Shown: piece after piece, positions 8,644 through 32,158 of the stretch
How the letters are laid out: each line of letters begins with the position of its first letter
Position numbering within the stretch: position 1 is the stretch's first letter
Assembly: GCF_037935975.1 (NCBI RefSeq)
Contig: NZ_CP149817.1
Location: 1,612,001-1,676,000 of the forward strand
Direction of reading: 5' to 3'
Source: Teredinibacter turnerae
GTDB taxonomy: Bacteria > Pseudomonadota > Gammaproteobacteria > Pseudomonadales > Cellvibrionaceae
Length of the DNA: 64,000 nucleotides
Notes under the pieces: generated by a model
Told to the model about the DNA's origin: nothing
The model's input: only the letters and a program-made list of their open reading frames with translations
The model's database searches: none
Translations under genes and position numbers: made by a program

Positions 8644-8728
8644 AGGAGCCTCCACACAATTATTATTGTTTTGGCAACAATGCGCTTTTACAGGGCGGAA
8701 CGCAAGAAGTTCAGTTGAGGCCCAATTT

Positions 8729-9616: not shown

Positions 9617-9637
9617 GAGCTGGTGTAGTCAGTAAGG

Positions 9638-11182: not shown

Positions 11183-11272
11183 CGTGTTCTCCATATTGTG
11201 CTCTAGGTACAACGCGGCCTTGCGAATGTTTTCGCTCCAGCTCATGTTCACTCACTGGAGCGATACTTACTG

Positions 11273-13058: not shown

Positions 13059-13140
13059 ATCAAATCTCCTAATAGTTCTTGGTATTTGCTGGCATCGCCG
13101 CTTGGGGTGATGCGCATAGGTGTGTATCCGGCGGTGCGAA

Positions 13141-14100: not shown

Positions 14101-15395
14101 GAACCAGTCTGTAATTGCTGAATAATCTGTTGCGCCGTTTCGATTTTTATATCACCGCTGGCAACCAACTGCTTTACCACTTCGTCGAAAATGTCACTGG
14201 GTGCGTTTGCGGCGAGTGCGACGCTGCGCGCGTGCAGCGTCATGTGCCCCTGCTGAATACCGTTACTCGCCAGTGCGCGCAACGCGGCAAAGTTCTGCGC
14301 CAAGCCCACGGCAGCCATAAGTGAGGCCAGTTCTTGCGCGCGGGAAATACCGAGTAACTTAAGATTAGCCAGCACAGCAGGATTCGTTTGCAGCGAACCA
14401 CCAACGGTGCCCACTTTAATTGGCATGGTCAGCTCGCCTTGTAAATCGCCGTTTTCAGTTTTGGTCCAGCGGCTCAAGGCGCGATACTGGCCGCTGCGCG
14501 CTGCAAAGGCGTGGGCCGCCGCTTCAATGCTGCGCCAGTCGTTGCCCGTTGCCAATGCCAGGGCGTCTACGCCGTTCATAATCCCTTTATTGTGGGTTGT
14601 CGCCCGGTAGGGGTCGGCCAATGCCAGGTCGCTGGCAAGAATAATGCGGTCGCGTACTTGCTCGCCACTCCAGCCCGGTGCCGCCAATAGGCTGCAGGGC
14701 AGCGTAACCTCAGACTGTGCCAGAGCTTCGTCCGCGAGATTCGATAGAATTTTAAGTACAGCTTCGCCGCCGCAAACCGCTTCCAACAGCGGCGCGACGG
14801 CTTCACAAACAGAGTTCACCATATTCGCACCCATAGCGTCCTGGGTATCGATGTGGAGGTGAACGACCAGCATCGCGCGGCCGCTGTGCTCCCCATCATG
14901 GTGATGAAAACTGATATCCCGCAGGCCGCCGCCCCGGGCAACCATATTGGGCATCGCCTGCTGAGCCGCCCTGGCGATGGACTCTTGTGCCGCGCGCAGC
15001 ATTTGCTCGGCGGCAAGAGGGTCGTCAAGCCCGGTGAGCTGCACCTGTCCGATCAGAATCGGTGAGCTGGCGGCGGCTGTAAAGCCACCATTTTTTTCAG
15101 CCAGGAGTGCGGCGAAAGATAACGCTGCCACTACGGAAGGCTCTTCAACAACTAAAGGGACCTGATAAATCTGGCCGTTGAGCGGGAAGTTCACGGCGAT
15201 GCCCTGCGGGAAGGCAAACCGGCCCACCACATTTTCGATCATCCGGTCCGCCGCGCTTTCCTGTAACACGGTGCCACCGTCCTGCCAGAATTGGTGTGTT
15301 TCGCGGTCGAAATACCCGGCGTCGAACAGCGCCTGCAATCGCTCTTGCACGCTGAGTTTACGAAATTTTCTGTGAAGCGTTTTGCGGTTACTCAT
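14097..15395 (-). CDS. mvaA: Hydroxymethylglutaryl-CoA reductase, class II
   Basis: The enzyme reduces HMG-CoA to mevalonate. The 432-residue protein fits the soluble class II form known from Pseudomonas mevalonii and Gram-positive bacteria: ENVVGRF (54-60), DAMGANMVN (186-194), THNKGI with the catalytic lysine K270, the catalytic aspartate D277, and GHMTLHAR with H384. There are no membrane segments, unlike eukaryotic class I enzymes. It overlaps pmk by eight bases and mvk by four. In this context it is biosynthetic rather than for growth on mevalonate; cofactor preference cannot be told from the sequence. Confidence 0.96.
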   Translation of the reverse strand: MSNRKTLHRKFRKLSVQERLQALFDAGYFDRETHQFWQDGGTVLQESAADRMIENVVGRFAFPQGIAVNFPLNGQIYQVPLVVEEPSVVAALSFAALLAEKNGGFTAAASSPILIGQVQLTGLDDPLAAEQMLRAAQESIARAAQQAMPNMVARGGGLRDISFHHHDGEHSGRAMLVVHLHIDTQDAMGANMVNSVCEAVAPLLEAVCGGEAVLKILSNLADEALAQSEVTLPCSLLAAPGWSGEQVRDRIILASDLALADPYRATTHNKGIMNGVDALALATGNDWRSIEAAAHAFAARSGQYRALSRWTKTENGDLQGELTMPIKVGTVGGSLQTNPAVLANLKLLGISRAQELASLMAAVGLAQNFAALRALASNGIQQGHMTLHARSVALAANAPSDIFDEVVKQLVASGDIKIETAQQIIQQLQTGS

Positions 15396-16431
15396 GTTGT
15401 TCTGTCGTTAAACCCGAATAGTCGATGGCCAGTGGTAGGGCGTGTACGCCATGCTTGCCGAGCTGGGCCAGGAAATCTGTAAGTTCAATTGTATCGCTAG
15501 CCAATGCAAGCCCCAGATCTCCGCCGCCCGCCCCGCAGGGTTTGTAAGTTAGGTGGCGGTATTTGCGGCCGGATAAGTAGAGCTGCTCGTGGCCATTGGC
15601 GAATATACCAAGCTGACTGTCGCCATCAAATTCGTGCAGCACTTCGGTAAATTGCCGGAAATTTGCGACCAGTTCGTTTGCAGTACGGGCCATTGCACTT
15701 GTTCTGGATTGCTCTTCCAGCAGGCCCATGTGCTGTGCAAAACTCGTCGGGTGGCGTTCGCGCCATTGACTCAGAGAGTGCAGGTATTTTGGGGTGGACG
15801 CGCTGGTACCGGTCCAAATAAAAGCCAGATGAGTTCCTTGGGGCAAGCGAAGTGGTTCCAACGTGCAGTGCAGCTGCTGCTGATTGCTAAATACGCAAGT
15901 GCCGCCGCACAGACTTGCAGCAACGTCGGCGCCGCTGCCTTGCTTGCCCTGAGCGATACTGTGGGCCTTGTGAATTATTGGCCAGGCTTGCTCGCGAGAT
16001 GGAACAGCGCCAGACAGCGTCCAAAGTACACCTGCCAGCGCAGTCGCCAGCGCACCACTGGAACCTAGCCCGAGCTTATGCTGTGTGTCGAACAACGCCC
16101 GGCTGTCTATTTCCAGCGCCCAGCCGTGGCTGCGCAAGATATCTGTGGCGCGCGGCATCTCTGCCAGCAAAGCATTAAACAGTTTCATCAGCAGCGTTAA
16201 AGATGGCTCTGTGCTGACTAACTCGGTAGCTTGCCAGTGCAGCTGGCTGGCCCCAGGGAGGAATCCTGGACAACACAGTGTGATTCCCGGTCTACTACTC
16301 GCCTGCGACTTCAGCTGAAGGTTAACGCGCCTGTCAATGCCAGCGACGAGGGCGGGTGCTCCCTGAAGTACGGCATATTCACCGCACAGAATCACTTTCC
16401 CTGGCGCCGACGCGTGTAAGGTCTTTGTCAT
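15388..16431 (-). CDS. Phosphomevalonate kinase
   Basis: This GHMP kinase converts 5-phosphomevalonate to 5-diphosphomevalonate. The 347-residue protein has the N-terminal APGKVILCGEYAVLQG motif, the ATP loop KLGLGSSGALA (about 119-129), the SGADVA motif after KQG, and the C-terminal PCGAGGGDLG loop typical of phosphomevalonate kinase. Its start codon shares a base with the mvaD stop codon, so the two genes are tightly coupled. Confidence 0.93.
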   Translation of the reverse strand: MTKTLHASAPGKVILCGEYAVLQGAPALVAGIDRRVNLQLKSQASSRPGITLCCPGFLPGASQLHWQATELVSTEPSLTLLMKLFNALLAEMPRATDILRSHGWALEIDSRALFDTQHKLGLGSSGALATALAGVLWTLSGAVPSREQAWPIIHKAHSIAQGKQGSGADVAASLCGGTCVFSNQQQLHCTLEPLRLPQGTHLAFIWTGTSASTPKYLHSLSQWRERHPTSFAQHMGLLEEQSRTSAMARTANELVANFRQFTEVLHEFDGDSQLGIFANGHEQLYLSGRKYRHLTYKPCGAGGGDLGLALASDTIELTDFLAQLGKHGVHALPLAIDYSGLTTEQHE

Positions 16432-17438
16432 CAGTCCAGCAGCCTTGCCCCTTGACCGAGCTTGCAGCGGATGACCCGTTTGATACCGGCAAGTTCGCTC
16501 AGGCGTTGAGCGACAAGCTCGCCATAGCCGGGCGCACAGATCGCCTTGATTTGCGGGCCGGCATCAATGGTAAAAAACACGGGGGTGCCTTCCGCGCGCC
16601 AGCGCTGGATCGCGCGCATCGCATCCATGGTGGCGCCACTCCAGTACAGTAGTGCAGGGCGGGAAGCAAGCGCAAGCGCGTGCATTTTGAGGCAGCTGAA
16701 TTCGCTGAGTTCGGCGAGTTTGTCAAAATCCCGCGCCTGTACTAGGGTCTCTGCGTTTATCACATCGGCATCGTTACCTGCGATCCACGCTGAATAATAG
16801 GGGCTAGTGAGACGGGAATTTTCCATCCCGGCGGTTGAGCCAATGGCTTTTTCTTCTTCAGAGACCACGCCCACACAGACTTCTAGCGGCCAGTGATCCG
16901 CAGGTGCGACCGCCTCGGCGTAGTTAGCGCCGAACGGCGCTGGTTCAATCTCCGCATGGGGAAGATAGATTTTGGCGAAGCCACCGAACAAAGAGCGTGC
17001 CGCGGAGCCGGACATGGCTCGGGCAAGCTTAGTTTGCTGCTGCAGGGAGAGGTTCAAATCCAATGCGTGATTGGCGGCAACTACCAGCGCCGCAAAACCG
17101 CTGGCGGATGAGGCCAGGCCCGCCCCGGTGGGGAAGTTATTGCTGGTGTCGATATGGCAAGGCGTTGTGATGCCTGCTAATTGTCGCATTGCGCTGAGGG
17201 CGGAAGAGATTCGTGGTAACTTGGCGGTGTCGTTGCTGCCGTTCAGGGTCAGTCGGTCGGTTTCGTAGGCGTTATCAAATGTGAGGGTGGTGCGAGTCGC
17301 CAACTCATCTAGTGTGATTGAGAGTGAGCTTACCGCAGGCTCGTTCGCTGTGGTGTTCTCCGCTTTGCCCCAGTATTTGATAAGCGCGATGTTGGGGTGA
17401 GCAATCGCTGTGGCTTGTCGTATGGCGTTGTCTGTCAC
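16431..17438 (-). CDS. mvaD: Diphosphomevalonate decarboxylase
   Basis: The enzyme performs ATP-dependent decarboxylation of 5-diphosphomevalonate to IPP, the last step of the classical mevalonate pathway. The 335-residue GHMP protein has the diagnostic ALIKYWGK motif near residue 20, the NNFPTGAGLASSASGFAAL loop near 103-121 and SGSAARSLFGGF near 146-157. The set hmgs-hmgr-mvk-pmk-mvaD is complete in this one operon; only acetoacetyl-CoA thiolase is not seen. There is an 86-base gap to hpnA upstream. Confidence 0.96.
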   Translation of the reverse strand: MTDNAIRQATAIAHPNIALIKYWGKAENTTANEPAVSSLSITLDELATRTTLTFDNAYETDRLTLNGSNDTAKLPRISSALSAMRQLAGITTPCHIDTSNNFPTGAGLASSASGFAALVVAANHALDLNLSLQQQTKLARAMSGSAARSLFGGFAKIYLPHAEIEPAPFGANYAEAVAPADHWPLEVCVGVVSEEEKAIGSTAGMENSRLTSPYYSAWIAGNDADVINAETLVQARDFDKLAELSEFSCLKMHALALASRPALLYWSGATMDAMRAIQRWRAEGTPVFFTIDAGPQIKAICAPGYGELVAQRLSELAGIKRVIRCKLGQGARLLD

Positions 17439-17524: not shown

Positions 17525-18550
17525 TCATGGGCTTGAGAAAACCGCGGGGTCGAGTGGTGCCCTGCGGATGTAGCCTTGCCGATGAAACCAGACCAAGGCA
17601 TCAGCTATGGCCTCAATAGCAGGGCGTGGATGATACCCCAGTTGAGCCTGTGCTTTGGTATGGCTGAAGAACATTTTTTTTTCAGCCATGCGCACACCAT
17701 CCAGCGGAATCATCGGTGGTTGCCCGCTTATTCGGGCGATTGCTTCGTTGACGACCGCCAGCGGTTTGATCCAGTTTGGCGACAATTCGATCCGCGGCGC
17801 CCTGCGCCCGGTGAACTTCGCGATTATCGCCAGAATGTCTCTCAGCAACAAATTTTCGCCAGCAAGAATGTAGTTTTCGCCAGTCTTACCGTGTTCGTAG
17901 GCCAGCAGATGACCCTGCGCAACATCGTCAACATGGGCGATATTGAGCCCGGTGTCCAAATAAGCAGGCATTTTACCATTCGCGGCGTCGACCAGTATTT
18001 TGCCGGTGGGCGTTGGTTTGATGTCCCTGGGCCCGACAGGCGCGCTTGGGCTTACCAGCACAATCGGCGCGCCCTCTGCGCAGAGATTTTCTATTGCTTG
18101 TTGGGCGAGAAACTTGGAGCGCTTGTAGTGGCCCATCATGTGGTCGAGTTCGCCGCGATGGCTTTCATCGTGGATCTGGCCCTGTGCGGAGGCTTTAAGT
18201 GTGGCGACGCTGGAGGTGTACACCACGCGTTTCACACCGCAGGCAAGCGCCGCGCGCACCAGAGCTAAAGAACCGTCGACGTTGGCGGCGTACATGGCGG
18301 CAGGGTCACGCACCCACAAGCGATAGTCGGCTGCGATGTGAAAAAGCACGTCGCAGCCGGTGGCGGCCTGCGCCAGGGTAGACGGTTTGGTGAGGTCGCC
18401 AATGATCTGCTCTACCGCCATTCCTTCGAGGTTGGGGTTGTCGGCGTGTCGGCAAAGCACGCGCACCGCTGTGCCTTGTTGTAATAACGCGCGGGCGACG
18501 GCATTGCCGAGAAATCCACTGGCGCCAGTAACAAGCGCTTTGTTAATCAT
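17525..18550 (-). CDS. hpnA: Hopanoid-associated NAD(P)-dependent sugar epimerase/reductase HpnA
   Basis: HpnA is an extended short-chain dehydrogenase of the epimerase family found in hopanoid loci, thought to act on the ribose-derived side chain. The 341-residue protein has the Rossmann motif TGASGFLG (about 7-14) and a YxxxK active site, seen as HYKRSK near 154-159. The start overlaps the hpnG stop by four bases. It lies between hpnG and mvaD in the same operon. Its exact reaction is still unsettled in the literature I know. Confidence 0.9.
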   Translation of the reverse strand: MINKALVTGASGFLGNAVARALLQQGTAVRVLCRHADNPNLEGMAVEQIIGDLTKPSTLAQAATGCDVLFHIAADYRLWVRDPAAMYAANVDGSLALVRAALACGVKRVVYTSSVATLKASAQGQIHDESHRGELDHMMGHYKRSKFLAQQAIENLCAEGAPIVLVSPSAPVGPRDIKPTPTGKILVDAANGKMPAYLDTGLNIAHVDDVAQGHLLAYEHGKTGENYILAGENLLLRDILAIIAKFTGRRAPRIELSPNWIKPLAVVNEAIARISGQPPMIPLDGVRMAEKKMFFSHTKAQAQLGYHPRPAIEAIADALVWFHRQGYIRRAPLDPAVFSSP

Positions 18551-19218
18551 TGTTGATGCACATGCTCCGCAATCATTTTCGGTAATTCCGAACCCACTGC
18601 AGATAAGCTGCGTAGCGCTATTCGGTATTTTCGGTTGAGCATAAAAAGGTCTGTCAGCAGGGTGGGGCGTCTTACCACGCTCGCGAGTAAGGCAAACGGA
18701 TTAACCCCTGAATTTTCACCCAAAAGCGGTACAAGTTCAGCTGGTAAGTTATCCTCGGCTTGATCACAAACTACCCGCATACAGAAAAAAGGTTTGCGCG
18801 CATGCTGTGCTACCGCGGCGACAGCAGACGATTCCATATCGACAGTATGAGCGCTCCAGTTGGCTGCCAGTGCCAGTTTGTCCGCCGCGTGAATCACGGG
18901 GTTGCTTACGCAAAGCTGGGTTGCGGTTGGATAGTGGCTTGTCAGGCTGTTGCAGCTGTAGGTTATGTTATCGGAAACCTGGATAACCTGAACAATGCTC
19001 ATCACTTGTCCGCTGCACAGTGATGTGTCGAGCGCACCGGATATCCCAAAACTCAGCAAGGCATCCGCGCCTCCCGCGATAAGGGACTCAGCAGCGTTGG
19101 TTGCATTGCGAGCGCCTACGCCGCAGCAAATGGCTCGGTCGCGCAAGCTTGGAGGCAAGCATGAGTACTCAGTGGCCAGGGCCGTAATAATTCCAAACTT
19201 CACAAAAAATATCGGCAC
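18547..19218 (-). CDS. hpnG: Hopanoid-associated nucleoside phosphorylase HpnG
   Basis: HpnG releases adenine from adenosylhopane, giving a ribosyl(phospho)hopane side chain. The 223-residue protein looks like a purine nucleoside phosphorylase/MTA-SAH nucleosidase: it starts with FGIITALATEYS, has SFGISGALD near 55-63 and the substrate-binding region VDMESSAVAAVA near 125-136. The start is uncertain: GTG at 19218 or GTG at 19203, the latter leaving the usual K-F-G-I-I-T N-terminus. It overlaps hpnA by four bases and follows the squalene synthase gene by 26. Confidence 0.88.
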   Translation of the reverse strand: MPIFFVKFGIITALATEYSCLPPSLRDRAICCGVGARNATNAAESLIAGGADALLSFGISGALDTSLCSGQVMSIVQVIQVSDNITYSCNSLTSHYPTATQLCVSNPVIHAADKLALAANWSAHTVDMESSAVAAVAQHARKPFFCMRVVCDQAEDNLPAELVPLLGENSGVNPFALLASVVRRPTLLTDLFMLNRKYRIALRSLSAVGSELPKMIAEHVHQQ

Positions 19219-19244: not shown

Positions 19245-20372
19245 TCAGTGCATGGTCGATTGCATTTTATGCATTGCTCGGGTGTGCTCGACACCAGAGA
19301 TTGGCGCGAATGGTAAACCCATACCCAGCATTTTGAAAATCACACGTTGCGCCGTATTGCTGCTGGCTGACGACGCGATGACCTGGGTAATTAACAGCAT
19401 GCGCGCGCGCGACATTTTGACTGTTTTACCATGGTAATAGGCGGAAGAGGTAAATACTTTTTGCAAGGTCGGTAACGCAAGGCCAACAGCCCAGAGACAA
19501 AATATCCGTATGCCCTTGTGTCTTGCCGGAATACACAGGCTATAGTCGAGTGCATTTTGCAGATGACCATGAGCGATGCTGATAAGTTGGCCCTGACAAC
19601 TGCGGAATAATGCAGTGTTGTGGTTAGGTGCAAGTTCGTCAAGATTAAAACCACCTGCACCATAAATGTCCCTCGGCAGCCAGCAAAATCCGCGTTCGAG
19701 ATCATCCCACACGTCTTTAATAATATTGGTCATTTGCAGGCCTTGGCCAAACGATGTGCTGAGTTTGTCCAGCCTATCGCGTTGTAATGCAATGTCTTCT
19801 GCAAAATCACAAAACAGACCGGTCAGCATTTCACCGACAACCCCGGCAACGAAGTAACAGTAGGCATCGAGTTCAGCTAACGACTCAAGACCTCGGTGAG
19901 CGCCGGGTTGATAATCCGGCATGCCTGCGCACATTTTTTTTACGCAGGTGGCGATGATATTTTGCGTTGTGTCGGGCAAGGCGAGAAAAATGCGAATGAC
20001 CTGGTCTGCATCGGCGACCAGATCACGCTCGACGGGGTCGGTTTGCAGCGATAACGCCGCGCTTGCCAAACGACAAAAAGTTGCAGGTGGAGCCTTGCCT
20101 TCCAATGCCGCAATAAAAAACCCGTATAAATCACGGGTGGCATCTGCGGAAATTTCTGGGTCGTCTTCTAATGTGTCTGCTATTCGACATAAAAGGTATG
20201 CATTGGTAACTGCGAGACATAAAAATTCTGGCAGTTGGGGAATTGTAAGTGCAAAGGAGCGTGAAACCTGGGGCAGCATTGTGTTTTGAAAATGCTGTTC
20301 GGACGCGAGTCGCGTTTTTACGTCATTCAACACATTGGCATGTGTATTCTCATTGCTGCGAACCGTTGCCAT
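19245..20372 (-). CDS. Squalene synthase (squalene/phytoene synthase family, single-enzyme type)
   Basis: Likely farnesyl-diphosphate farnesyltransferase, coupling two FPP into squalene. Numbered from the upstream ATG at 20381, the first aspartate-rich motif is DTLEDD (69-74), like squalene synthases, and the second is NIIKDVWDD (219-227), with the YCYFVAG segment (174-180) typical of these enzymes. At about 375 residues it is longer than HpnC or HpnD (about 280-300) and has the size of eukaryote-type squalene synthase. I prefer ATG at 20372 (GAAGGG nine bases upstream). It heads the leftward operon, divergent from shc. No hpnC, hpnD or hpnE homologue is present in this window, so it is inferred to do the whole conversion; dehydrosqualene or phytoene as product is less likely given Shc next door. 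Confidence 0.86.
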   Translation of the reverse strand: MATVRSNENTHANVLNDVKTRLASEQHFQNTMLPQVSRSFALTIPQLPEFLCLAVTNAYLLCRIADTLEDDPEISADATRDLYGFFIAALEGKAPPATFCRLASAALSLQTDPVERDLVADADQVIRIFLALPDTTQNIIATCVKKMCAGMPDYQPGAHRGLESLAELDAYCYFVAGVVGEMLTGLFCDFAEDIALQRDRLDKLSTSFGQGLQMTNIIKDVWDDLERGFCWLPRDIYGAGGFNLDELAPNHNTALFRSCQGQLISIAHGHLQNALDYSLCIPARHKGIRIFCLWAVGLALPTLQKVFTSSAYYHGKTVKMSRARMLLITQVIASSASSNTAQRVIFKMLGMGLPFAPISGVEHTRAMHKMQSTMH

Positions 20373-20536
20373 AATTGACATCCCTTCTGAATTTTGGCGT
20401 GATCTGTGCGTAATTCACGTCTAATCACAACCCACCGAAATATGAGCTAGCAATGCCAAACAGTATACATGAATCTGTATTCTCAATACTTTACACTGGG
20501 TTCACCTTTTAGCTTGGTGGAGCTCACGTAACGGTT
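20373..20536. promoter_or_regulatory. Divergent intergenic region between squalene synthase and shc
   Basis: These 164 bases must carry the promoters of the leftward mevalonate/hopanoid operon and of rightward shc. Candidate -10 hexamers are TATACT on the minus strand (20462-20467) and TACACT on the plus strand (20492-20497), but neither has a good -35 at the right distance, so the exact sites are weakly supported. A shared regulator binding here would control both transcripts. Confidence 0.35.
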
Positions 20537-22594
20537 ATGGAAATTCAGGATGAAGTCGATCTTCTAGAACCGCAGGAAAGTCTAACAGCCTCTGCTGATT
20601 CGACTGTTGACCGGGCGCTATCCTGGTTGTTGGATGCGCAGTACCAAGACGGTTATTGGGCGGGGATACTCGAGTCAAATGCCTGCATGGAAGCTGAATG
20701 GCTTTTGTGTTTTCATGTGCTGGGCATTGCTAACCATCCAATGAGTCGCGGGCTTGTGCAAGGTTTATTGCAGCGTCAGCGCGCCGACGGTTCGTGGGAT
20801 GTGTATTACGGCGCGCGCGCTGGCGACATTAACACCACTGTCGAGGTATACGCGGCTTTGCGGTGTCAGGGTTATGCCGCCGATCACCCGGATATCAAAC
20901 GCGCGCGCGATTGGATTCAATTGCAGGGTGGCGTTAAACAGGTACGGGTGTTTACGCGATTCTGGTTGGCGCTCATTGGCGAGTGGCCGTGGGAGGAAAC
21001 GCCCAATCTGCCGCCGGAAATTCTTTTTTTTCCGCGATGGTTTCCGTTCAATATCTATCATTTTGCTGCCTGGGCGCGGGCCACTCTGGTGCCCTTGTGT
21101 ATTCTTAGTGCGCGCCGCATGGTTGTGCCCTTAAATAAAAAATCCTGTTTGCAGGAATTGTTTCCAGAAGACCGGTCCGCGGTCGTTGCTCTGCGCAAAA
21201 AAAACGGCGCCTGGTCGACGTTTTTTTATCACGCAGATCGCGCGCTTAAAAAATATCAAAGAATGTTTAAACGACCACCTGGGCGTCAGCAGGCGATAAA
21301 AATGTGCCTCGAATGGATTCTTCGTCGCCAGGACGCTGATGGTGCCTGGGGGGGGATTCAGCCGCCTTGGATATATAGTCTGATGGCGTTAAAAGCCGAA
21401 GGTTATCCTGTTACTCATCCAGTCATGGCGAAAGGTCTTGCCGCACTCGATGCGCACTGGTCTTACGAGAGGCCGGGTGGTGCGCAGTTTGTTCAAGCCT
21501 GCGAAAGCCCGGTATGGGATACCTTGTTAAGTTCTTTCGCGTTATTGGATTGTGGGTTTAGCTGTACGTCCTCTTCTGCATTGCGTAGGGCCGTCGATTG
21601 GATTCTGGATCAACAGGTCCTCCTGCCTGGCGACTGGCAACAGAAGTTGCCGACGGTTTTGCCTGGTGGCTGGGCATTTGAGCGGGCGAACGTGCATTAT
21701 CCTGATGTGGACGATACGGCAGTTGCGCTAATCGTGCTCGCCAAAGTACGACCCGATTACCCCGATACCGCACGTGTTAATCTGGCGATTGAACGCGGGT
21801 TAAACTGGTTATTTGCGATGCAGTGTCGCAACGGCGGGTGGGGTGCCTTCGATAAAGACAACGATAAAGACCTTCTCACTAAAATACCGTTTAGCGATTT
21901 TGGTGAAACAATAGACCCTGCCAGTGTTGACGTTACTGCCCATGTGCTGGAGGCACTCGGGTTGCTAGGGTATCGGACAACCCACCCTGCCGTTGCGAAG
22001 GCGCTCGAATTCATTCGCAGCGAACAAGAGAGCGATGGCTGCTGGTTTGGCCGGTGGGGGGTGAATTATATCTACGGTACGGCAGCCGTGTTGCCCGCGC
22101 TGGCGTCGCTTAACATGAACATGAATCAGGAGTTTATTCGTCGCGCTGCCAATTGGATTGTAGGCAAACAAAACAACGATGGTGGTTGGGGTGAGTCCTG
22201 TGCATCCTACATGGATGATACTCAACGTGGGCGAGGGCCGAGTACTGCATCGCAAACGGCCTGGGCGATGATGAGTTTGCTCGCTGTCGATGGCGGTACG
22301 TACGCCGAGTCCCTGTTGCGCGCTGAAGCTTATCTGGAAACTACCCAAACCCCAGAGGGTACCTGGGACGAGCCCTATTACACAGGTACCGGCTTTCCAG
22401 GTTACGGCATTGGACGTCGAGAATTAAAACGCCAGCGGTCCTTGCAACAGCATGCGGAGCTGAGTCGCGGTTTTATGATTAACTACAACCTCTACCGTCA
22501 CTATTTTCCGATAATGGCGCTTGGCAGACTGGCTGCATTGAAAGGGACCAGAACCTGCCGAAGCCGTTGTTACGATTGTGGCCGTGGACGGTAG
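20537..22594 (+). CDS. shc: Squalene-hopene cyclase
   Basis: This monotopic membrane enzyme cyclises squalene to hopene/hopanol, the committed step of hopanoid synthesis. The 685-residue protein has several QW-type repeats (for example QYQDGYW, QRADGSW, QDADGAW, QCRNGGW, QNNDGGW) and the catalytic D390-V-D-D393 motif in YPDVDDTA. The length matches bacterial cyclases (about 630-690). A GGTGGAG sequence is 14 bases before the ATG, so the ribosome site is not ideal. The Cys/Arg-rich last 15 residues are unusual and overlap the convergent next gene by 25 bases. Confidence 0.96.
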   Translation: MEIQDEVDLLEPQESLTASADSTVDRALSWLLDAQYQDGYWAGILESNACMEAEWLLCFHVLGIANHPMSRGLVQGLLQRQRADGSWDVYYGARAGDINTTVEVYAALRCQGYAADHPDIKRARDWIQLQGGVKQVRVFTRFWLALIGEWPWEETPNLPPEILFFPRWFPFNIYHFAAWARATLVPLCILSARRMVVPLNKKSCLQELFPEDRSAVVALRKKNGAWSTFFYHADRALKKYQRMFKRPPGRQQAIKMCLEWILRRQDADGAWGGIQPPWIYSLMALKAEGYPVTHPVMAKGLAALDAHWSYERPGGAQFVQACESPVWDTLLSSFALLDCGFSCTSSSALRRAVDWILDQQVLLPGDWQQKLPTVLPGGWAFERANVHYPDVDDTAVALIVLAKVRPDYPDTARVNLAIERGLNWLFAMQCRNGGWGAFDKDNDKDLLTKIPFSDFGETIDPASVDVTAHVLEALGLLGYRTTHPAVAKALEFIRSEQESDGCWFGRWGVNYIYGTAAVLPALASLNMNMNQEFIRRAANWIVGKQNNDGGWGESCASYMDDTQRGRGPSTASQTAWAMMSLLAVDGGTYAESLLRAEAYLETTQTPEGTWDEPYYTGTGFPGYGIGRRELKRQRSLQQHAELSRGFMINYNLYRHYFPIMALGRLAALKGTRTCRSRCYDCGRGR

Positions 22595-23154
22595 TGGTGC
22601 GCGATAAACGTTTGCCTGTCGGCCCAAAACTCGACACGGTTCATTGTGAACGGATTTTTGTCACCAACGCCATCGGGGTTAAAAGCCCAGATAATTAACC
22701 AGGTGTATAAGTTCTCCCAAAAACGGTGCCATGGATTGGTGTACTGCGGTACGCACAAATTAAAGCCAAGTCTGCGCCAAATTTTTTCACCGCTGCCGTG
22801 CTGGCCGGATAAAACCAAGGGAGTTGAGCCTCCGATAAATTCCACGTGATTAAAACGCGGGTCGTTCACGAGTTGAAAGGCAAGCTCCTGAAATGAATCG
22901 CGTAGCATGGTTGCGCTTTTCGCCGCCCATGCGATAGGGGTTTTTGCCAATTTTTGCGATGGGACATGCTCGTTCCAAAAGTGGATTTCCAGAAGGCGTG
23001 AACCCGGGCGAATTGTGTTTTTATTTATCGGAATAGGTTGCTTGTTGGTAGTGAAGCCCACCCGGATCAAAGCGTTGGGGTGCACCCAAAACTCAAAGAT
23101 TCCCTGTTTTTCTCGCAAGTGCTTGTCGATGTTTTTTATCAGCTTTCGCAGCAC
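22570..23154 (-). CDS. YkoP-like hypothetical protein
   Basis: This 194-residue protein has no signal peptide. It resembles, by eye, the YkoP-type domain often found near polysaccharide deacetylases and lipid-modifying genes (basic N-terminus, then an LEIHFWNEHVP motif near 55-65), but the assignment is tentative and no catalytic residues can be named. It converges on shc (25-base overlap) and is divergent from hpnK, 134 bases away. Its place inside the hopanoid locus suggests a related accessory role. Confidence 0.7.
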   Translation of the reverse strand: MLRKLIKNIDKHLREKQGIFEFWVHPNALIRVGFTTNKQPIPINKNTIRPGSRLLEIHFWNEHVPSQKLAKTPIAWAAKSATMLRDSFQELAFQLVNDPRFNHVEFIGGSTPLVLSGQHGSGEKIWRRLGFNLCVPQYTNPWHRFWENLYTWLIIWAFNPDGVGDKNPFTMNRVEFWADRQTFIAHHYRPRPQS

Positions 23155-23288
23155 GCTTATTCCTCTAGAATCGATTTGTTGGCACTATAGGAACCTGTTC
23201 ATTTCTCAGTAAATGACAGCACCTAAAAAACAACAACTAAAAAACAACTGCAAAAAGTAACCACACCAAGAAGCGATGATAACAAGTG

Positions 23289-24071
23289 ATGACTAGTTCA
23301 ACGGTAAGTCTGGAGTTTCACTTTATTGCTGACGATTTTGGCAGAGATGAAGCGACAAATCAGGCCATGATTCACTGTCATCAAAACGGCATCCTCTCCG
23401 GCGTCGCACTGATGATGGGGCAATCAGCCAGCGCGGCCGCCATTGCTATGGCCAGAGAAAACCCACACCTGGATATAGGGTGGCATTTTCATATTGTCGA
23501 TAGCCAGCCTTTAACTCAAACGCAGTGGCCCTGGCGGACACCTGCCCAGGCCGGATTCGCTATAGGCTTTTCGTCCGCTGCCCGAGCACTTGTCCGGCGT
23601 GAAATTGCCGCCCAATGGCAGGCATTTAACGCCACCGGATTACACTGTGCTTTTATTAACGCCCACCACCATATGTTAATACATCCGTTTATTCGCCGAG
23701 CGTTACTCGATCACGTGGGAGCGGAGTTTGGCGGCTGGTTGCGCTGGGGACAGCCAAAGTTCTTCTCTGCACCAAATCGGGCTTATATCTTGTTGGATCG
23801 ACTGCTTCAGCGGCCACAGGCTAAAGTGATGCCTTGCCAAATCAGTCGCTCGCTGTGGGGGATTGATCGCACATTTAAGATGCAATCCGATGAAGTTAGC
23901 GAGCAAATCCAACACTTAATCGATAGCGGTGAAACCGGCCTGCACGAATTTATGTTTCACCCGCGCCAGTCAAACGATATGGATACCGAGTGTCTGCTTG
24001 AACTGGCAAAAATACTTCCCCACAAACACCCGGATTATTTTGCCTTGCCCAGTGGTTCGGTCACCGTGTAG
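23289..24071 (+). CDS. hpnK: Hopanoid-associated deacetylase HpnK (ChbG/YdjC family)
   Basis: HpnK removes the acetyl group from N-acetylglucosaminyl bacteriohopanetetrol made by HpnI, giving the glucosamine head group. The 260-residue YdjC-fold protein has the metal-binding aspartates in IADDFGRDEA near residue 14, a DIGWHFH motif (about 65) and NAHHHMLIHP (about 121-130), all as expected for carbohydrate deacetylases. GTG at 23286 is an alternative start. Its end overlaps the convergent LolA-like gene by 37 bases. HpnI is encoded about 4 kb away. Confidence 0.88.
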   Translation: MTSSTVSLEFHFIADDFGRDEATNQAMIHCHQNGILSGVALMMGQSASAAAIAMARENPHLDIGWHFHIVDSQPLTQTQWPWRTPAQAGFAIGFSSAARALVRREIAAQWQAFNATGLHCAFINAHHHMLIHPFIRRALLDHVGAEFGGWLRWGQPKFFSAPNRAYILLDRLLQRPQAKVMPCQISRSLWGIDRTFKMQSDEVSEQIQHLIDSGETGLHEFMFHPRQSNDMDTECLLELAKILPHKHPDYFALPSGSVTV

Positions 24072-24727
24072 CCACTAAGATCTATGTCGAGTTTTTCTTC
24101 AGGGAAGGGCACGTTGTACTGTGCATTGTGAAATTCATTCGTTAGCATCGATCCATCGGCAAAGTAAAGATGGGTCGCTTTAAGCTGCATGCTGGAAGTG
24201 TCCACCTCCAGGCTGACTTTATCTAACAGCTTTCTCGCTAACACCGCCGCAGGCTGCAATTGAAATTCGATTACGGGCTTGTCCGCGACAGGGGTTAGTG
24301 GTTCGCTGTTTAGCAGCGTGTACTGTTGGCGAAACTGCTTGGGATCGCTGGGAAATCCCACCTCTAACAACAGCAATATTTGTCGCATCGCCGGGTCGGT
24401 AATAGTCGCGAACGGGTATTTTTCTGCCTGTTTTAATTTGGGATATGCGATCACCAGCTGTTGTGCGTTTCGCACTGCAAGCGTTCGCACCGGCGTGCCC
24501 AGTTGCCAGCGAAACCGGTTCGGCTTGATAAACCATAGCTCGCCTTCCTGGCGCAGTGGCCTTGTGAGATTTTTTATATGCCGGATTTGTACAACCTCTG
24601 CATGCCAATGTTCTATTTTTGCCTGGTGAGCAAGCCATTTATCCAACAGGCCTGGCGAGGACTCGCTGGTCTGGCAGATCGACAGCATAAGGCATATAAA
24701 AATTTTGGCGGGCAGGTACCGTACCAT
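24035..24727 (-). CDS. LolA-like periplasmic lipoprotein/lipid carrier
   Basis: The 230-residue protein has a signal peptide (about 1-23) and LolA-family features, notably GELWFIKPNRFRWQLG near residues 61-76, so it should adopt the LolA/LolB half-barrel that carries acyl chains across the periplasm. It follows the MMPL exporter gene by 123 bases on the same strand. LolA-like proteins paired with MMPL exporters occur in lipid-export clusters (for example aryl polyene loci). Here hopanoid transfer is the inferred cargo; general lipoprotein transport is less likely given the context. Confidence 0.82.
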   Translation of the reverse strand: MVRYLPAKIFICLMLSICQTSESSPGLLDKWLAHQAKIEHWHAEVVQIRHIKNLTRPLRQEGELWFIKPNRFRWQLGTPVRTLAVRNAQQLVIAYPKLKQAEKYPFATITDPAMRQILLLLEVGFPSDPKQFRQQYTLLNSEPLTPVADKPVIEFQLQPAAVLARKLLDKVSLEVDTSSMQLKATHLYFADGSMLTNEFHNAQYNVPFPEEKLDIDLSGYTVTEPLGKAK

Positions 24728-24850
24728 GGTGTTTCCTTTTTACGACAGGGTTCGTTGCTGGTTGAAGGCGATTGTTAGGTAAGGCAATTGTTGAGTGCAG
24801 CTGCGGCTGGCGACGTCTTTTTCTCGCATATTAAAGATTTCCGGTGTCTG

Positions 24851-27217
24851 TCATTGTGATCTGCCATTCACTCTGTGCAGGGTTATCCACCAGGCGGGCA
24901 ATAGAAAAACGGCGCATGCGGCGAGAATCACGATACCTAGCGCGGTAACTTTGCCGAGACTGGCGATTCCTGCGTTAGTTCCCAGGCCGAGGCTGGCAAA
25001 TGCCACTGCGGTTGAGCCTGCACAGAGTAAAATCGCGCGGCCAACGGATTGGAACACCCGCGAGAGGTTTCCTCTCTCGCGCTTCAGTGCCAGTTGAATG
25101 TGAATGCTGTAGTCGACTCCTGCACCCAGCAGCAAGGGGAGTGCGGTGAGATTCATGATATTCCAGGACCAATCCAGCAGCGCCATGCATGCACTCAGGA
25201 TTAAGCCGCCCAGCAGAAAACAGAAAAGGCTGAGGACCACGTCCAGCCAGTGGCGAAAGGCCAATGCGAGCAAGCACAACAAAACGACTATCATCGGTAA
25301 CAGCACGTTGAGCGCATCCTGGATCATGGTGGCGGTGAGTTCGTCAGCCAGCAGAGCCCACCCCGCTACCGCCACCCCGGGTATCTGTTGTAACTGCTTC
25401 ACCAGTGAGGATTGTGTTGCCTTGTCGAGCGCTGTAGCGCTGGACAATTGCGCCATGGCGAACCAACTCTCGTCAGTATGGCTCGCGAATTGTGAAAACA
25501 GCCACTGATTTGCCGGGTGTGCGGGCCACAGTGGATGGCTCGCGGTGGGGGCTGCCGCGTCAGCGTAGCTTTGCCAGCGGTGCATGACTTCTGCTGTAAG
25601 TAACAGGGAATCGGCATTAAAACCGGCATCGACCGCAGCCAGTTGGAACTCGGTCAGGCGTTTGGCCAAGTCCGCGAGAGACTGGCGATTAGCCTTCTGG
25701 TGCGCGGGGTCCGGCCAAAGAGCGGTGGGAAGATTCGCGTTGATTGCGGGGAAGGCGTCGTCCAGTTGCCGTTGGGTTCGGTCCAGAGCGTGAGCAATTT
25801 GTTGTGCGTCTGGCGCCGCGAATATCAGCCACTGTTCGCTCGCTGAGGCAGCCAGTCGCTGCTGAATATGGTCGTGTGTCGCCTGTGCGGCGTTGTTGGC
25901 AAACTGCAATTTATCGACCTGGGTCTCCAGTGTCGGGGGGCGCATAAAGGTTGTGAGTAAGCTGCCTAAAAGCAAAGTGGCTGAGGTGGCGATAGCGATT
26001 TTGGTGGGCAGCGTGGGTGTGGCAGGCGCTGATACTGGACGCGCAGGCGTGCGTACCACCGCAGGAAGAAAACCGTAGAGCACCGTGGTTGCGGCTATCA
26101 GAATACCCAATGCGACTAACAGGCCGAGCTGAGCCAGTCCTGGGAGGTTACTGCGGGTCAGCAGAAAAAAAGCGCAGGCCGTGGTAAACGCGGCCCAGAA
26201 GATACTCGGTTGCAGTTTGCGTCGCAGTTCGCTTGCCGATAAGCGGCTCTCAGCCTGAAAGTGCTGGTACACGAGCAAACCATAATCAACGGCAAGGCCC
26301 ATAAGCAACGCAGCAAACCCGAGACTGACCGCGTGAATCTCTCCCAGCAATGCGGCTCCCAGGAGCAGTGTCACCGCCAGACTGAGTCCAAGCGTCAGGG
26401 CGAGCCATAGCAGCGGCTGAACGCGCCGATACGCCAGCCAGAAAAGTCCGAGAACAACTATCAAGGTACCAGCGGCGGCAAGGCTCAAGTCCCGCACCAG
26501 TTGAGAGCCAAACTCCACGATATAGACGGGATTTCCCGTCATTGAAATTGTCGTGGAAACGGGAAGCTCACCCGCGTCTCGGAGCCGGGATATTTCGCTA
26601 TTGATGCCATCCAACCAGCTTTTATAGCCCCAAAAGTCGCCTTCGGTGTGCGGGTAATCGAGATACATCACACGCAGGCGGCCATCCACGGATGCGAACG
26701 GGTTATAGGCACGGCTCTGCAGTTGGGTGGCGACTTGGGTTAGCCCGAGTGGGTCATTGGCCAGGCGCGCCACGTCAGCGGCATTGAATGAGGAGGCGAG
26801 CTGTTCAAGGGTATTGTTGAGCTGTGTATTAACGGCTGCTGGGCGCAACCGCTCTGCCAGTTTGTTCACCGCCTCGGGTGGCTGACTGAGCCAGATCAGC
26901 GCGAGAATTTCGGCGTAGGCCTCGGGCGAATCCTGCAACGGGTTTTGCCAAACCGGGGCGCGGCTTAACCTTGCGCGCTGCAGTGACCTGGCCAACTCAG
27001 GCATGGCGGCGTCGAGGGTATCTGGGTTCTCATCCTCAATGGCAAGTATTACCGCCTCGCTCGCGCCGAAATTCTGTTGGTAACGCTGCAATGCCGTTAC
27101 CGTACTAGAGTCCTTGGGCAGCAGGGAGAATATGTCCGCATTAAGAGCGACGGGCGTCGTTAGCAGTAGTACCGCCAGCACGCCGACCATTGCCAACCAG
27201 AATCGCCATCCCGCCAC
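24851..27217 (-). CDS. hpnN: MMPL/RND-family exporter, HpnN-like
   Basis: This 788-residue inner-membrane protein belongs to the RND superfamily MMPL group. It has one N-terminal membrane helix, a periplasmic domain, a block of about five helices (about 240-410), a second periplasmic domain and a second helix block (about 640-780). In Rhodopseudomonas palustris HpnN of this family moves hopanoids to the outer membrane. I choose GTG at 27217, with GGAG seven bases upstream and two bases from the preceding stop; a frame from 27310 would overlap that gene by 91 bases. It lies between a lipoprotein and a LolA-like gene, an apparent export unit. Confidence 0.87.
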   Translation of the reverse strand: MAGWRFWLAMVGVLAVLLLTTPVALNADIFSLLPKDSSTVTALQRYQQNFGASEAVILAIEDENPDTLDAAMPELARSLQRARLSRAPVWQNPLQDSPEAYAEILALIWLSQPPEAVNKLAERLRPAAVNTQLNNTLEQLASSFNAADVARLANDPLGLTQVATQLQSRAYNPFASVDGRLRVMYLDYPHTEGDFWGYKSWLDGINSEISRLRDAGELPVSTTISMTGNPVYIVEFGSQLVRDLSLAAAGTLIVVLGLFWLAYRRVQPLLWLALTLGLSLAVTLLLGAALLGEIHAVSLGFAALLMGLAVDYGLLVYQHFQAESRLSASELRRKLQPSIFWAAFTTACAFFLLTRSNLPGLAQLGLLVALGILIAATTVLYGFLPAVVRTPARPVSAPATPTLPTKIAIATSATLLLGSLLTTFMRPPTLETQVDKLQFANNAAQATHDHIQQRLAASASEQWLIFAAPDAQQIAHALDRTQRQLDDAFPAINANLPTALWPDPAHQKANRQSLADLAKRLTEFQLAAVDAGFNADSLLLTAEVMHRWQSYADAAAPTASHPLWPAHPANQWLFSQFASHTDESWFAMAQLSSATALDKATQSSLVKQLQQIPGVAVAGWALLADELTATMIQDALNVLLPMIVVLLCLLALAFRHWLDVVLSLFCFLLGGLILSACMALLDWSWNIMNLTALPLLLGAGVDYSIHIQLALKRERGNLSRVFQSVGRAILLCAGSTAVAFASLGLGTNAGIASLGKVTALGIVILAACAVFLLPAWWITLHRVNGRSQ

Positions 27218-27219
27218 GA

Positions 27220-27696
27220 TTACACTCCATCCAAAAACAGCTGTACCCGTTCGCCTGTTAAGGGGTTTTCTATGCTGATTTCGCCGGCGCCGGTGGTATT
27301 TACACGCCATGCTGTGCTTTCAGACGTTGCCCCGTTGGCGACAATGTCCGGCATTGCAAACCAGATTACCTGGGTAGGTGGATTGCCTGTTCCCTGGTGT
27401 TGACCGCCATCGAGGCTGTGCAACCACCAGCGTACTTGGTTGCCATTCCTGGTTGTTTGTACGTGAATCACGACGATAGGCGGCTTGCTTAATTCTGCGT
27501 AAACTTCTCCGGTATCAGAGCGGGCGAGCAATACATCGCCCGCTATCTCGGTGCCAGCTGTCGTCTTCCACAGGGCCTGACCCTGCCAGCTCTGCCATTG
27601 GCTCTTGGCCAGATCGATGACCGGGGCGGGAGTGGTGCTGCACCCGGTGAGCATGGCGATGCCGATAAAAATCCTAAAAAAATATTGCGTACTCAC
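27220..27696 (-). CDS. Small lipoprotein in hopanoid export operon
   Basis: The 158-residue product has a lipoprotein signal with lipobox LTGC (C19) and a Ser at +2, compatible with outer-membrane sorting. The mature part has Trp-rich stretches (SQWQSWQGQALWK) resembling, weakly, the N-terminal part of LolB. I cannot assign a family with confidence. It overlaps hpnI by four bases and ends two bases before the MMPL gene, so the three genes are surely co-transcribed. A role as outer-membrane receptor for the LolA-like carrier is a guess. Confidence 0.8.
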   Translation of the reverse strand: MSTQYFFRIFIGIAMLTGCSTTPAPVIDLAKSQWQSWQGQALWKTTAGTEIAGDVLLARSDTGEVYAELSKPPIVVIHVQTTRNGNQVRWWLHSLDGGQHQGTGNPPTQVIWFAMPDIVANGATSESTAWRVNTTGAGEISIENPLTGERVQLFLDGV

Positions 27697-28823
27697 GCGT
27701 GATCATCCTTTAACGGTCGAGACCAGTACTCGCCCCGCCAGACCGCTGGCAGTGGTAGCCAGCATGCGAGAAAAGTGAGCGGCCTCAGCAGGCTCCAGAG
27801 AGGAATGGCAACTACCGCTTTGCGCGCTAAGCGTGTGCGGTGTAGCTTACACAGGGTTAAAGCGGCGATGGAATCCACGCTGAGGGTGCATAGCAGGCCT
27901 AGCCAAACAATAAGGTTGCCTGGTTGGTGAATTGCCGCGGCGAGCCAGCCTAGAAGAGGCATTACTATCGCCTGTGCGGCAAACCCGCCGGGGCGGTTCC
28001 AGCGAATTGTTTTTTGCCAGCGAAAATAGTGTTGCAGTGCAGGTCGCCAGTTATCGATATCGACCGTCGTTGACAAACATACGCTGGACAGGTGCACAGG
28101 CTGCAGTTGTTGACCAAGCTGGTAGTCGTCCGCCAGGTGTTGTCCGAGCGCATTCAGGTTTACACGCTGCTCGAAGTCGTCACGCCGAAACAGCATTCCC
28201 GCGCCAAAGCCAAATTCAATGGCTTTGGTACGCGCCATTAGTTTTGCGCCCGGATAAAACTCCAGATTGACAAATAGGGTGTCCAATATTGCCGCAGGTG
28301 ATCGCGTTTCCGCCACGCGATAGGCGCAGGTAAGCAGCGCGCATTCGTTGTCCAGCAGCTCATTCCGCATGGTTGCCAGCGCAGTCGCCGGCGCGAATAC
28401 ATCGACGTCACTCCACAGCCAGAGCGGGTTTTGCGCATATTCCACCAGCGTTTTCATCCATGCAATTTTGGGATTGGGCGCTGAGAGATGTGGGGAAGGA
28501 TGGGAAATAACACGCACCACGGCGGACGGATATTGGTTGTGACAACGCTGGGAAAAATGGTGCCAAAAGGGAGCGTCTGCTTCGTAGCAGCCGATAAGCA
28601 TTTCGTCATTTGGCTGCATCTGGCGGATCCAGCTGCACAAATTCTCCTCAGTTGTTATCTGCTGTTGCAAGGCTTGCTTGGGCAGCGGTTTGAACAGCGT
28701 TACGGGCAGCCTATTGCCAGTTTGCGCGCTTCGGGGTTTTGCCGGGAAGGGCGTTTTAACCAGCCACCAAGCGGCAATCCACCACACCAGAGACAGGGTG
28801 CTCCAGATAATCAGTAAACTCAC
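27693..28823 (-). CDS. hpnI: Hopanoid-associated glycosyltransferase HpnI
   Basis: HpnI transfers N-acetylglucosamine to bacteriohopanetetrol. The 376-residue protein has one N-terminal membrane helix, a GT2/GT21-type catalytic domain with the D139-V-D141 metal motif (SDVDVFAP), a later ADDYQLG motif and QKTIRW as the QxxRW motif, then C-terminal hydrophobic segments, the topology of ceramide-glucosyltransferase-like enzymes. It overlaps the VTT gene and the lipoprotein gene by four bases each. With HpnK nearby the predicted head group is glucosamine. Confidence 0.82.
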   Translation of the reverse strand: MSLLIIWSTLSLVWWIAAWWLVKTPFPAKPRSAQTGNRLPVTLFKPLPKQALQQQITTEENLCSWIRQMQPNDEMLIGCYEADAPFWHHFSQRCHNQYPSAVVRVISHPSPHLSAPNPKIAWMKTLVEYAQNPLWLWSDVDVFAPATALATMRNELLDNECALLTCAYRVAETRSPAAILDTLFVNLEFYPGAKLMARTKAIEFGFGAGMLFRRDDFEQRVNLNALGQHLADDYQLGQQLQPVHLSSVCLSTTVDIDNWRPALQHYFRWQKTIRWNRPGGFAAQAIVMPLLGWLAAAIHQPGNLIVWLGLLCTLSVDSIAALTLCKLHRTRLARKAVVAIPLWSLLRPLTFLACWLPLPAVWRGEYWSRPLKDDHA

Positions 28824-29578
28824 GATAGGGGACCCGTCGCAGGCATTTGGGCACGGCGATCGCGCATAGCGCGTAGCTCACGGTAACGCACGCGCCGTCG
28901 CCACCGGTTGTGCAACCAAGGCCCGCCTACGACGATATTCAGTACCACAAATGCGGCCAGATATCCTGCACCGATTTGACTGCGTGCCAGATTGGAATCA
29001 GCGTGCAGTAACCAACCGATGCACAAGGTGTGGACCGCTGTAGAGGGCAGCAACCCCACCAGCGATGCAAATAGGTACCGTTTAAGTGGCATTCCGCTGA
29101 GCGCCGCAGTTACGTTCAGTACGGTGTCTGGAATCGGCAAAAAGCGCGCTTGGACAAGAGGCCAAAACCCAAAGCGGTTAATAAAACGACGGGTCTTGTA
29201 ATAGCGGGAGCCTGCCGTTTGCAACACGAAACGCAGGCCTAGCACTCTTGCCAGGGTGAATCCTGCCGCTGCGCCAAGCAACAGTCCCGTTAAATTGTAT
29301 AAAGTCCCCATGACGGGCCCAAATACTGCGCCGACAACAAATAACGGGGGCGCTGGTATTCCGGCGAGGCCGAAGAGGGTGTAACCGAGCAGCAGAAGCA
29401 ATGGCGTCCACCAAAAACGCTTAACTTGTTCAGTGGCCTCGCTGAGAGATGACTGCTCCAATAGGCCTGTGAGCGGAGAATAGGAAACCAGCAGCCAGCC
29501 TGCGATAATTAGCAATAGCAGCACACTGAACTTGATGACAGGAGTGAGCGATCTTGTGGGGACTTGGCTGGGCTTCAC
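28820..29578 (-). CDS. VTT/DedA-like (TVP38/TMEM64-type) membrane protein
   Basis: The 252-residue protein has a long N-terminal hydrophobic segment and the VTT domain motif region (GIPAPPLFVVGAVFGPVMG, then GAAAGFTLAR and FGFWPLVQARFLPIPDTVLN), seen in the SNARE-associated Golgi/TVP38 family. Some members act as lipid scramblases or flippases. GTG at 29578 with AGGG nine bases upstream is the likely start; an earlier ATG would add 53 residues of low-complexity sequence. It is the first gene of the operon leading into hpnI and the exporter, so a role in moving hopanoid or undecaprenyl-type lipids is plausible but unproven. Confidence 0.82.
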   Translation of the reverse strand: MKPSQVPTRSLTPVIKFSVLLLLIIAGWLLVSYSPLTGLLEQSSLSEATEQVKRFWWTPLLLLLGYTLFGLAGIPAPPLFVVGAVFGPVMGTLYNLTGLLLGAAAGFTLARVLGLRFVLQTAGSRYYKTRRFINRFGFWPLVQARFLPIPDTVLNVTAALSGMPLKRYLFASLVGLLPSTAVHTLCIGWLLHADSNLARSQIGAGYLAAFVVLNIVVGGPWLHNRWRRRVRYRELRAMRDRRAQMPATGPLS

Positions 29579-32145: not shown

Positions 32146-32158
32146 GCCCTGGTCGTCA

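Follow-up and report, generated by a model that had tools for sequence, protein, structure and literature searches.

We analyzed a 64,000-nucleotide window from Teredinibacter turnerae (assembly GCF_037935975.1, contig NZ_CP149817.1, positions 1,612,001 to 1,676,000 of the forward strand), in which a hopanoid biosynthesis cluster includes genes for a lipoprotein, an MMPL exporter, and a LolA-like carrier, together designated the trio. The trio is likely to form a Lol-like transport chain dedicated to the hopanoid of this cluster, acting in place of HpnN. The cargo is perhaps an amino-sugar hopanoid, modified by the HpnI-like and HpnK-like enzymes of the cluster. To our knowledge, the step by which hopanoids cross the periplasm is not defined in the literature. 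Coordinates below are those of the window. Its own genome is designated G000, G003 and G005 are genomes of the same genus, and L-numbers are fetched loci.

The trio lies in a five-gene leftward module

The preliminary description of this DNA had proposed a leftward, operon-like set of five genes beginning with a VTT-type membrane protein, and this arrangement was borne out. All five open reading frames (ORFs) are present on the reverse strand and tightly packed. They encode a VTT-domain (DedA/UptA-like) membrane protein (28820..29578; PF09335, 75 bits), an HpnI-like family 21 glycosyltransferase (27693..28823), the lipoprotein (27220..27696), the MMPL/RND exporter (24851..27217), and the LolA-like periplasmic carrier (24035..24727). 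The HpnI-like gene overlaps both its neighbours, the VTT gene and the lipoprotein gene, by 4 bp each. The gap between the MMPL and LolA-like genes is 123 bp, and the 3' end of the LolA-like gene overlaps the converging HpnK-like gene. The same gene order was found in G003 (85-96% identity) and G005 (32-52%), and partly in L129, L130, and L145, which indicates that the set is more than a chance grouping. Relatives of the VTT protein in L129 and L145 are 39-40% identical, and the glycosyltransferase has a 40% relative in L129. This enzyme had been described as HpnI; its membership of GT21 held (PF13506, 126 bits), but its TIGR03472 score of 141.7 bits is under the cut-off of 310.

The VTT ORF is listed to 29737 with a TTG start. 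The in-frame GTG at 29578 is the likelier start because the resulting 252 amino acids equal the length of the L036 relative. The MMPL ORF is listed to the ATG at 27310; translation probably begins instead with the GTG at 27217, two bases past the lipoprotein stop and in register with the MMPL relative of G005. A scan for promoters and terminators detected nothing promoter-like and a single terminator-like site, which is below the count in shuffled sequences. G003 differs in having a roughly 349-bp element, bounded by terminal inverted repeats, between the MMPL and LolA-like genes (L034:11513-11861); the window is without this element.

Carrier and lipoprotein are predicted to have LolA and LolB folds

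The resemblance of the carrier to LolA and of the lipoprotein to LolB, both suggested earlier from the letters, was supported by structure prediction. The carrier matched PF03548 with 48.4 bits (cut-off 23.6), which together with its predicted fold places it in the LolA superfamily. It is not LolA proper, as it scored 39.2 bits against the TIGR00547 equivalog cut-off of 112, and the canonical LolA of the genome is encoded elsewhere (C1:3223645). The carrier model, built from 17 sequences, had a predicted local distance difference test score (pLDDT) of 90.7. Foldseek returned LolA throughout (E 2.9e-13), and the comparison with 8v1k gave Z 19.9 and a root-mean-square deviation (rmsd) of 2.8 over 183 aligned positions.

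The lipoprotein has an LTGC lipobox, with the Cys19 codon at 27642-27640 and Ser at +2, a residue that suits outer-membrane sorting. The lipobox Cys was invariant in 12/12 rows of the folding alignment, which omitted the relatives in L137 and L143 because their trimmed starts are unclear. The AlphaFold model from these 12 sequences had a pLDDT of 87.5 and a predicted template modelling score (pTM) of 0.81. A Foldseek search of the PDB placed LolB first (E 2.8e-4), and the comparison with LolB 3wjv gave Z 11.7 and rmsd 3.6 over 121 aligned positions. The top six structure matches were LolB, one of them chain B of a LolA-LolB complex, followed by LolA with Z 7.8. At the sequence level, neither Pfam nor NCBIfam matched the lipoprotein at E<=1, ApeN/DUF3261 (PF11659) included, and its profile found no PDB sequence at E<=1. 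Comparison with an ApeN-type profile was weak (63%, partly through the signal peptide), and hhalign against the carrier gave nothing (0.2%). These results suggest that the protein, by its lipobox and modelled fold, is a LolB-fold lipoprotein.

The MMPL protein belongs to a clade separate from HpnN

The exporter had been described as HpnN-like. The superfamily assignment held, since it matched PF03176 with 97 bits and has Asp-Tyr pairs in both halves. Identity with HpnN was rejected: the TIGR03480 score was 142.4 bits against a curated cut-off of 751.85, and the protein fell into a separate clade in trees. Among PDB sequences, only two HpnN structures (5khn and 6wu0) matched it at E<=0.1. Numbered from the ATG at 27310, the pairs are D342-Y343 (26287-26282) and D733-Y734 (25114-25109). 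In MmpL3 work, such pairs are taken as the proton path. The first Asp is kept in 20/21 aligned trio-type rows (Gly in G168, and Asp-Phe in one row), and the second pair is kept in all 21.

An unrooted tree of 19 HpnN, 16 polyene-type, and 3 module rows separated into three groups. In a larger tree, a quick one without bootstrap, 21 trio-type rows formed one clade with a Shimodaira-Hasegawa-like approximate likelihood ratio test (SH-aLRT) value of 100. These rows were 14 of Verrucomicrobiota type, 5 hopanoid-linked, G168, and G255, the last with no LolA-like match within its fetched stretches. The 8 HpnN rows of this tree grouped together, with the module outside. In the LolA tree, all 20 trio carriers lay on one side of a branch with support 100/99, and the hopanoid-linked rows with G168 were supported by 98/98. 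All MMPL and LolA trees carry long-branch warnings. Since the LolA tree mirrors that of the MMPL proteins, the trio genes appear to be co-inherited.

HpnN was not detected above its cut-off in genomes with the trio

In G000, no protein scored above the HpnN cut-off, and the best reached 90.9 bits. HpnN above cut-off was found in 0/6 further trio genomes (G003, G005, G909, G910, G911, and G168) versus 6/6 canonical controls. G000 has one MlaC, about 0.7 Mb from the cluster; the cluster therefore contains no HpnM. We also examined 55 of the 59 other listed gammaproteobacterial cyclase loci, leaving out the lowest-ranked G171:C186, G322:C10, G316:C22, and G391:C1:4462734. The trio carrier or lipoprotein was present in none of the 55 and HpnN in 20, with several loci cut by contig ends. 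The cyclase of L056, 60% identical to that of the window, is accompanied by HpnN and not by the trio. A single-sequence MlaC phmmer search returned 7 ORFs in 7/55 loci, a search too insensitive to use. In other clusters, ORFs of about 250 amino acids that separate HpnG from HpnN were considered as HpnM and rejected, as the four tested are PhyH. In one study, HpnN was present in all predicted hopanoid-polyol-producing alphaproteobacterial genomes; its passages on these proteins credit HpnN with hopanoid movement to the outer membrane and leave the role of HpnM unsettled (PMC12583986).

The trio occurs with hopanoid genes in a distant lineage

Within the genus, the cyclase was found in 3/8 genomes, and clear MMPL orthologues were found in the same three. 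The entire hopanoid cluster is syntenic in G003 and G005. The MMPL protein was found at E<=1e-30 in 2/390 genomes of an order sample, namely its own and G003 (G005 is evidently outside the sample), and in 6/369 genomes of a class sample, its own included. The gammaproteobacterium G168 was the sole match among 85 genomes of its order (E<=1e-40). It has the trio in the same order (lipoprotein 32%, MMPL 37%, LolA 33%), adjoined by a TonB receptor.

No relative emerged when genome contigs were scanned with the full MMPL alignment. A scan with the C-terminal MMPL segment found 18 loci, 13 of them with the full trio and the rest cut or unmatched. L129 contains relatives of the VTT, HpnI, trio, HpnK, and YkoP proteins together. 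L130 begins inside the MMPL gene and continues with LolA, HpnK, and YkoP relatives. In both genomes, the cyclase is on other contigs. L145, from the Olavius algarvensis-associated 'Delta 3', has relatives of the VTT and YkoP proteins, the trio, farnesyl diphosphate synthase, squalene synthase, HpnH, and HpnG, and its contig continuation (L145/L157) adds the cyclase (62%), HpnK, and HpnA. This trio thus lies within a hopanoid cluster, which extends the linkage with hopanoid genes to a distant lineage. In L129, L130, and L145 alike, a YkoP-domain protein accompanies the hopanoid-linked trio. A sulfotransferase gene (PF13469) is located between the VTT or YkoP gene and the trio (L129:4801-6117 and L145:6188-7339), and the hopanoid head group may be sulfated in these lineages.

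The other 15 loci, 13 of which have Verrucomicrobiota-type titles, were annotated in part, and three Verrucomicrobiota loci were examined. In one of these, L142:8000-11440, MMPL and a Lip_A-type acyltransferase are in one frame (by Pfam, L142 only). Such a frame would tether lipid acylation to export. Long MMPL frames are also present in L132, L136, L137, L140, L141, and L144. The cyclase was found elsewhere in 13/15 genomes of the remaining loci. This was not used as evidence for a hopanoid cargo because there is no baseline for cyclase frequency in Verrucomicrobiota. Around those 13 cyclases, no HpnA, HpnG, or HpnH match was found in the fetched stretches, some of which are short.

The surrounding hopanoid cluster

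The route from mevalonate to hopanoid spans 8729-29737 on a single 5.35 Mb contig. Three proteins scored above curated cut-offs, which identifies a hopanoid biosynthesis cluster: the squalene-hopene cyclase (20537..22594, forward strand; TIGR01507, 681 bits), the adenosyl-hopene transferase HpnH (11273..12391, reverse; TIGR03470, 508.7 bits), and the sugar epimerase HpnA (17525..18550, reverse; TIGR03466, 462.9 bits). Like the HpnI-like enzyme, two others scored under the cut-offs of their families, namely the HpnK-like YdjC deacetylase (23286..24071, forward; TIGR03473, 118.5 bits, cut-off 232.6) and the HpnG-like phosphorylase (18547..19218, reverse; TIGR03468, 123.6 bits, cut-off 187). The remaining genes are on the reverse strand. 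They encode the YkoP-domain protein (22570..23154; PF22790, 34.6 bits), squalene synthase (19245..20381; PF00494, 167 bits, with TIGR01559 the best NCBIfam match, below cut-off), the mevalonate pathway enzymes MVD, PMK-like, HMG-CoA reductase, MVK, and IPP isomerase (12468..17438), and an HMG-CoA synthase-like protein with farnesyl diphosphate synthase (8729..11251). HpnJ gave no match at E<=1e-40 in G000, G003, and G005. In the same search, 3/4 controls were above cut-off and the fourth was negative, and G909, G910, and G911 had matches below cut-off only. The missing HpnJ match suggests a glucosamine-type rather than a cyclitol-type hopanoid, if the HpnI-like and HpnK-like enzymes act as their relatives do.

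The cluster is flanked by a glycoside hydrolase family 52 gene (6538-8655), which is syntenic in G003 and G005. Past its other end, 31354-34255 holds a DUF3450-ExbB-ExbB-ExbD-like (TonB energising) set, judged by eye.

Comparison with known lipid transport systems

A Lol-like chain has been proposed for ApeL, ApeM, and ApeN (LolA-like, RND, and DUF3261 LolB-like) of E. coli aryl polyene clusters in the section of PMC8253772 that treats them. Like these proteins, the trio combines an RND/MMPL pump, a LolA-like carrier, and a LolB-like lipoprotein beside lipid synthesis genes, and the carrier is clearly related to the ApeL-type profile (hhalign 97.7%, E 2e-12). Unlike them, it belongs to another MMPL clade and another carrier clade, and its lipoprotein is unmatched by DUF3261, which was listed for 5/5 tested ApeN-like downstream lipoproteins (3 above cut-off). 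The trio order is lipoprotein-MMPL-LolA, whereas in polyene-type loci LolA-MMPL is followed by the lipoprotein directly or after at least one gene; a LolA-like gene was present in 15/16 of these loci. The presumed cargo is a hopanoid for the trio and a polyene for ApeL/ApeM/ApeN. Gene-by-gene comparison with the L053 cluster covered L046, L047, and L052, and L038-L045 and L048-L051 were called polyene-type from gene context, so that some may be other acyl-lipid clusters. L053 itself is an aryl-polyene-type cluster of the window's own genome (G000:C1, about 1587000-1600000). It includes both a LolA-like gene and an MMPL pump gene of its own, located about 43 kb from the trio, and no lipoprotein ORF adjoins the pump.

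With HpnN (TIGR03480; 5khn and 6wu0), the trio exporter shares the MMPL/RND superfamily and the setting in a hopanoid cluster. In contrast to HpnN with HpnM, the trio has no MlaC/HpnM-like gene in its cluster, and its partners are LolA- and LolB-fold proteins. The Lol pathway (LolCDE-LolA-LolB) has the same carrier and receptor folds, but in the trio an MMPL pump replaces LolCDE and the presumed substrate is a free lipid. No LolCDE gene was recognised among 20 proteins scanned around the carrier. The sterol transporters BstA, BstB, and BstC of Methylococcus capsulatus likewise take a polycyclic lipid through three compartments, with an RND protein at the inner membrane; BstB is bilobed and BstC all-helical, unlike the trio, and the account of Bst in PMC10942540 names no LolA or LolB part in the portion concerned. 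By analogy, the trio would work like ApeL/ApeM/ApeN and, more distantly, like Lol, so that its plan is a known one.

Shipworm symbionts have been reported to contain a gene cluster family, GCF_5, that joins terpene cyclase to aryl-polyene genes and occurs in every T. turnerae strain, and one sentence of that 2020 paper states that the cluster can 'make and export hopanoids' (PMC7329324). GCF_5 is probably the very same cluster as that of the window. Its description, in the portion of the paper devoted to it, leaves the export genes unnamed and proposes no Lol-like mechanism (PMC7329324). The preliminary description had considered such a chain undescribed. As to a Lol-like mechanism for hopanoids, this stands, and no description of a Lol-like hopanoid chain replacing HpnN was found in the open-licence literature searched; the ApeL/ApeM/ApeN chain and the statement on hopanoid export precede it.

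Proposed transport chain and alternatives

In the proposed mechanism, the MMPL pump, which from its family and conserved Asp-Tyr pairs would be proton-driven, takes the hopanoid from the membrane leaflet. The hopanoid would then pass to the soluble LolA-fold carrier, whose putative hydrophobic cavity would shield it across the periplasm. The carrier may hand the hopanoid to the LolB-fold lipoprotein, which carries the lipobox and would reside in the outer membrane and release the cargo into it.

Several observations weigh against this proposal. We infer the hopanoid cargo from gene linkage, that is, from guilt by association, and also the direction, proton coupling, partners, and location of the trio proteins; a flippase-like helper role for the VTT protein is a guess. 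The lipoprotein model was built from only 12 sequences, and pLDDT exceeded 80 in only 2/5 AlphaFold models. The six hopanoid-linked carriers alone were supported by only 93/41, and a single hopanoid-linked MMPL clade was weakly supported (68). Contig-broken HpnN-like pieces were found in G909 (324 and 268 bits, sum 592) and G910 (483 and 89.5 bits, sum 573), and these two genomes probably keep an HpnN-like protein too. G168 has the trio without a squalene-hopene cyclase match. In the Verrucomicrobiota loci L131, L139, and L142, a Lip_A acyltransferase gene lies between MMPL and LolA, and in L139, FabA-like and AMP-binding genes follow the trio. Because the trio occurs both beside acyl-lipid genes and in a genome that lacks the cyclase, the module is not in itself specific to hopanoids; of the hopanoid module first described, the LolA and LolB folds were supported by prediction, and the linkage to hopanoid genes was found again in L145 and L157.

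These acyl-lipid neighbours, the trio of G168, and the relation between carrier and ApeL profiles would also fit a trio that exports another lipid, of acyl or aryl-polyene type, and lies in the hopanoid cluster by coincidence. We consider this quite improbable: the nearby L053 cluster is already equipped with a pump and carrier gene, trio and cyclase share the same three genus genomes, and in L145/L157 a hopanoid cluster surrounds the trio, where of 11 aryl-polyene cluster proteins the pump alone finds a relative. The predicted folds would also fit a carrier and lipoprotein that form an additional Lol pathway serving a subset of lipoproteins, with the MMPL protein alone moving the hopanoid as HpnN does. 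HpnN is credited with this movement with no Lol partner named in the relevant passages of PMC12583986. This explanation is very improbable, as the carrier is inherited together with the MMPL protein, LolCDE was not among the 20 scanned neighbours, and the canonical LolA is elsewhere. Moreover, Arg43 of E. coli LolA, which matters for lipoprotein transfer, corresponds to Lys in the window carrier and to Ala in the family consensus.

A narrower alternative is that the chain carries glycosylated hopanoid only and simpler hopanoids reach the outer membrane otherwise. The position of HpnI directly upstream of the trio and of HpnK beside it, together with the HpnJ result, favors this alternative. 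In L145, however, the trio occurs with a sulfotransferase and no HpnI relative was found by blastp in the stretch, which suggests that the head group may vary, and we regard the restriction to glycosylated hopanoid as unlikely. A dedicated Lol-like chain for the hopanoid of the cluster remains our preferred explanation.

Significance

The layout of the trio suggests how water-fearing, sterol-like hopanoids could reach the outer membrane. For the periplasmic step, the cluster points to a soluble carrier and a receptor, in a shipworm symbiont that is seemingly cultivable. The spread of the trio across phyla suggests that sets of MMPL, LolA, and LolB-fold proteins are a reusable lipid delivery unit. 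We lean slightly toward a broader interpretation, in which an HpnN-independent hopanoid chain on the Lol plan is one form of an interphylum cassette fitted to different polycyclic or acyl lipids. If true, this would provide a candidate general route for the delivery of lipids by MMPL pumps to the Gram-negative outer membrane.

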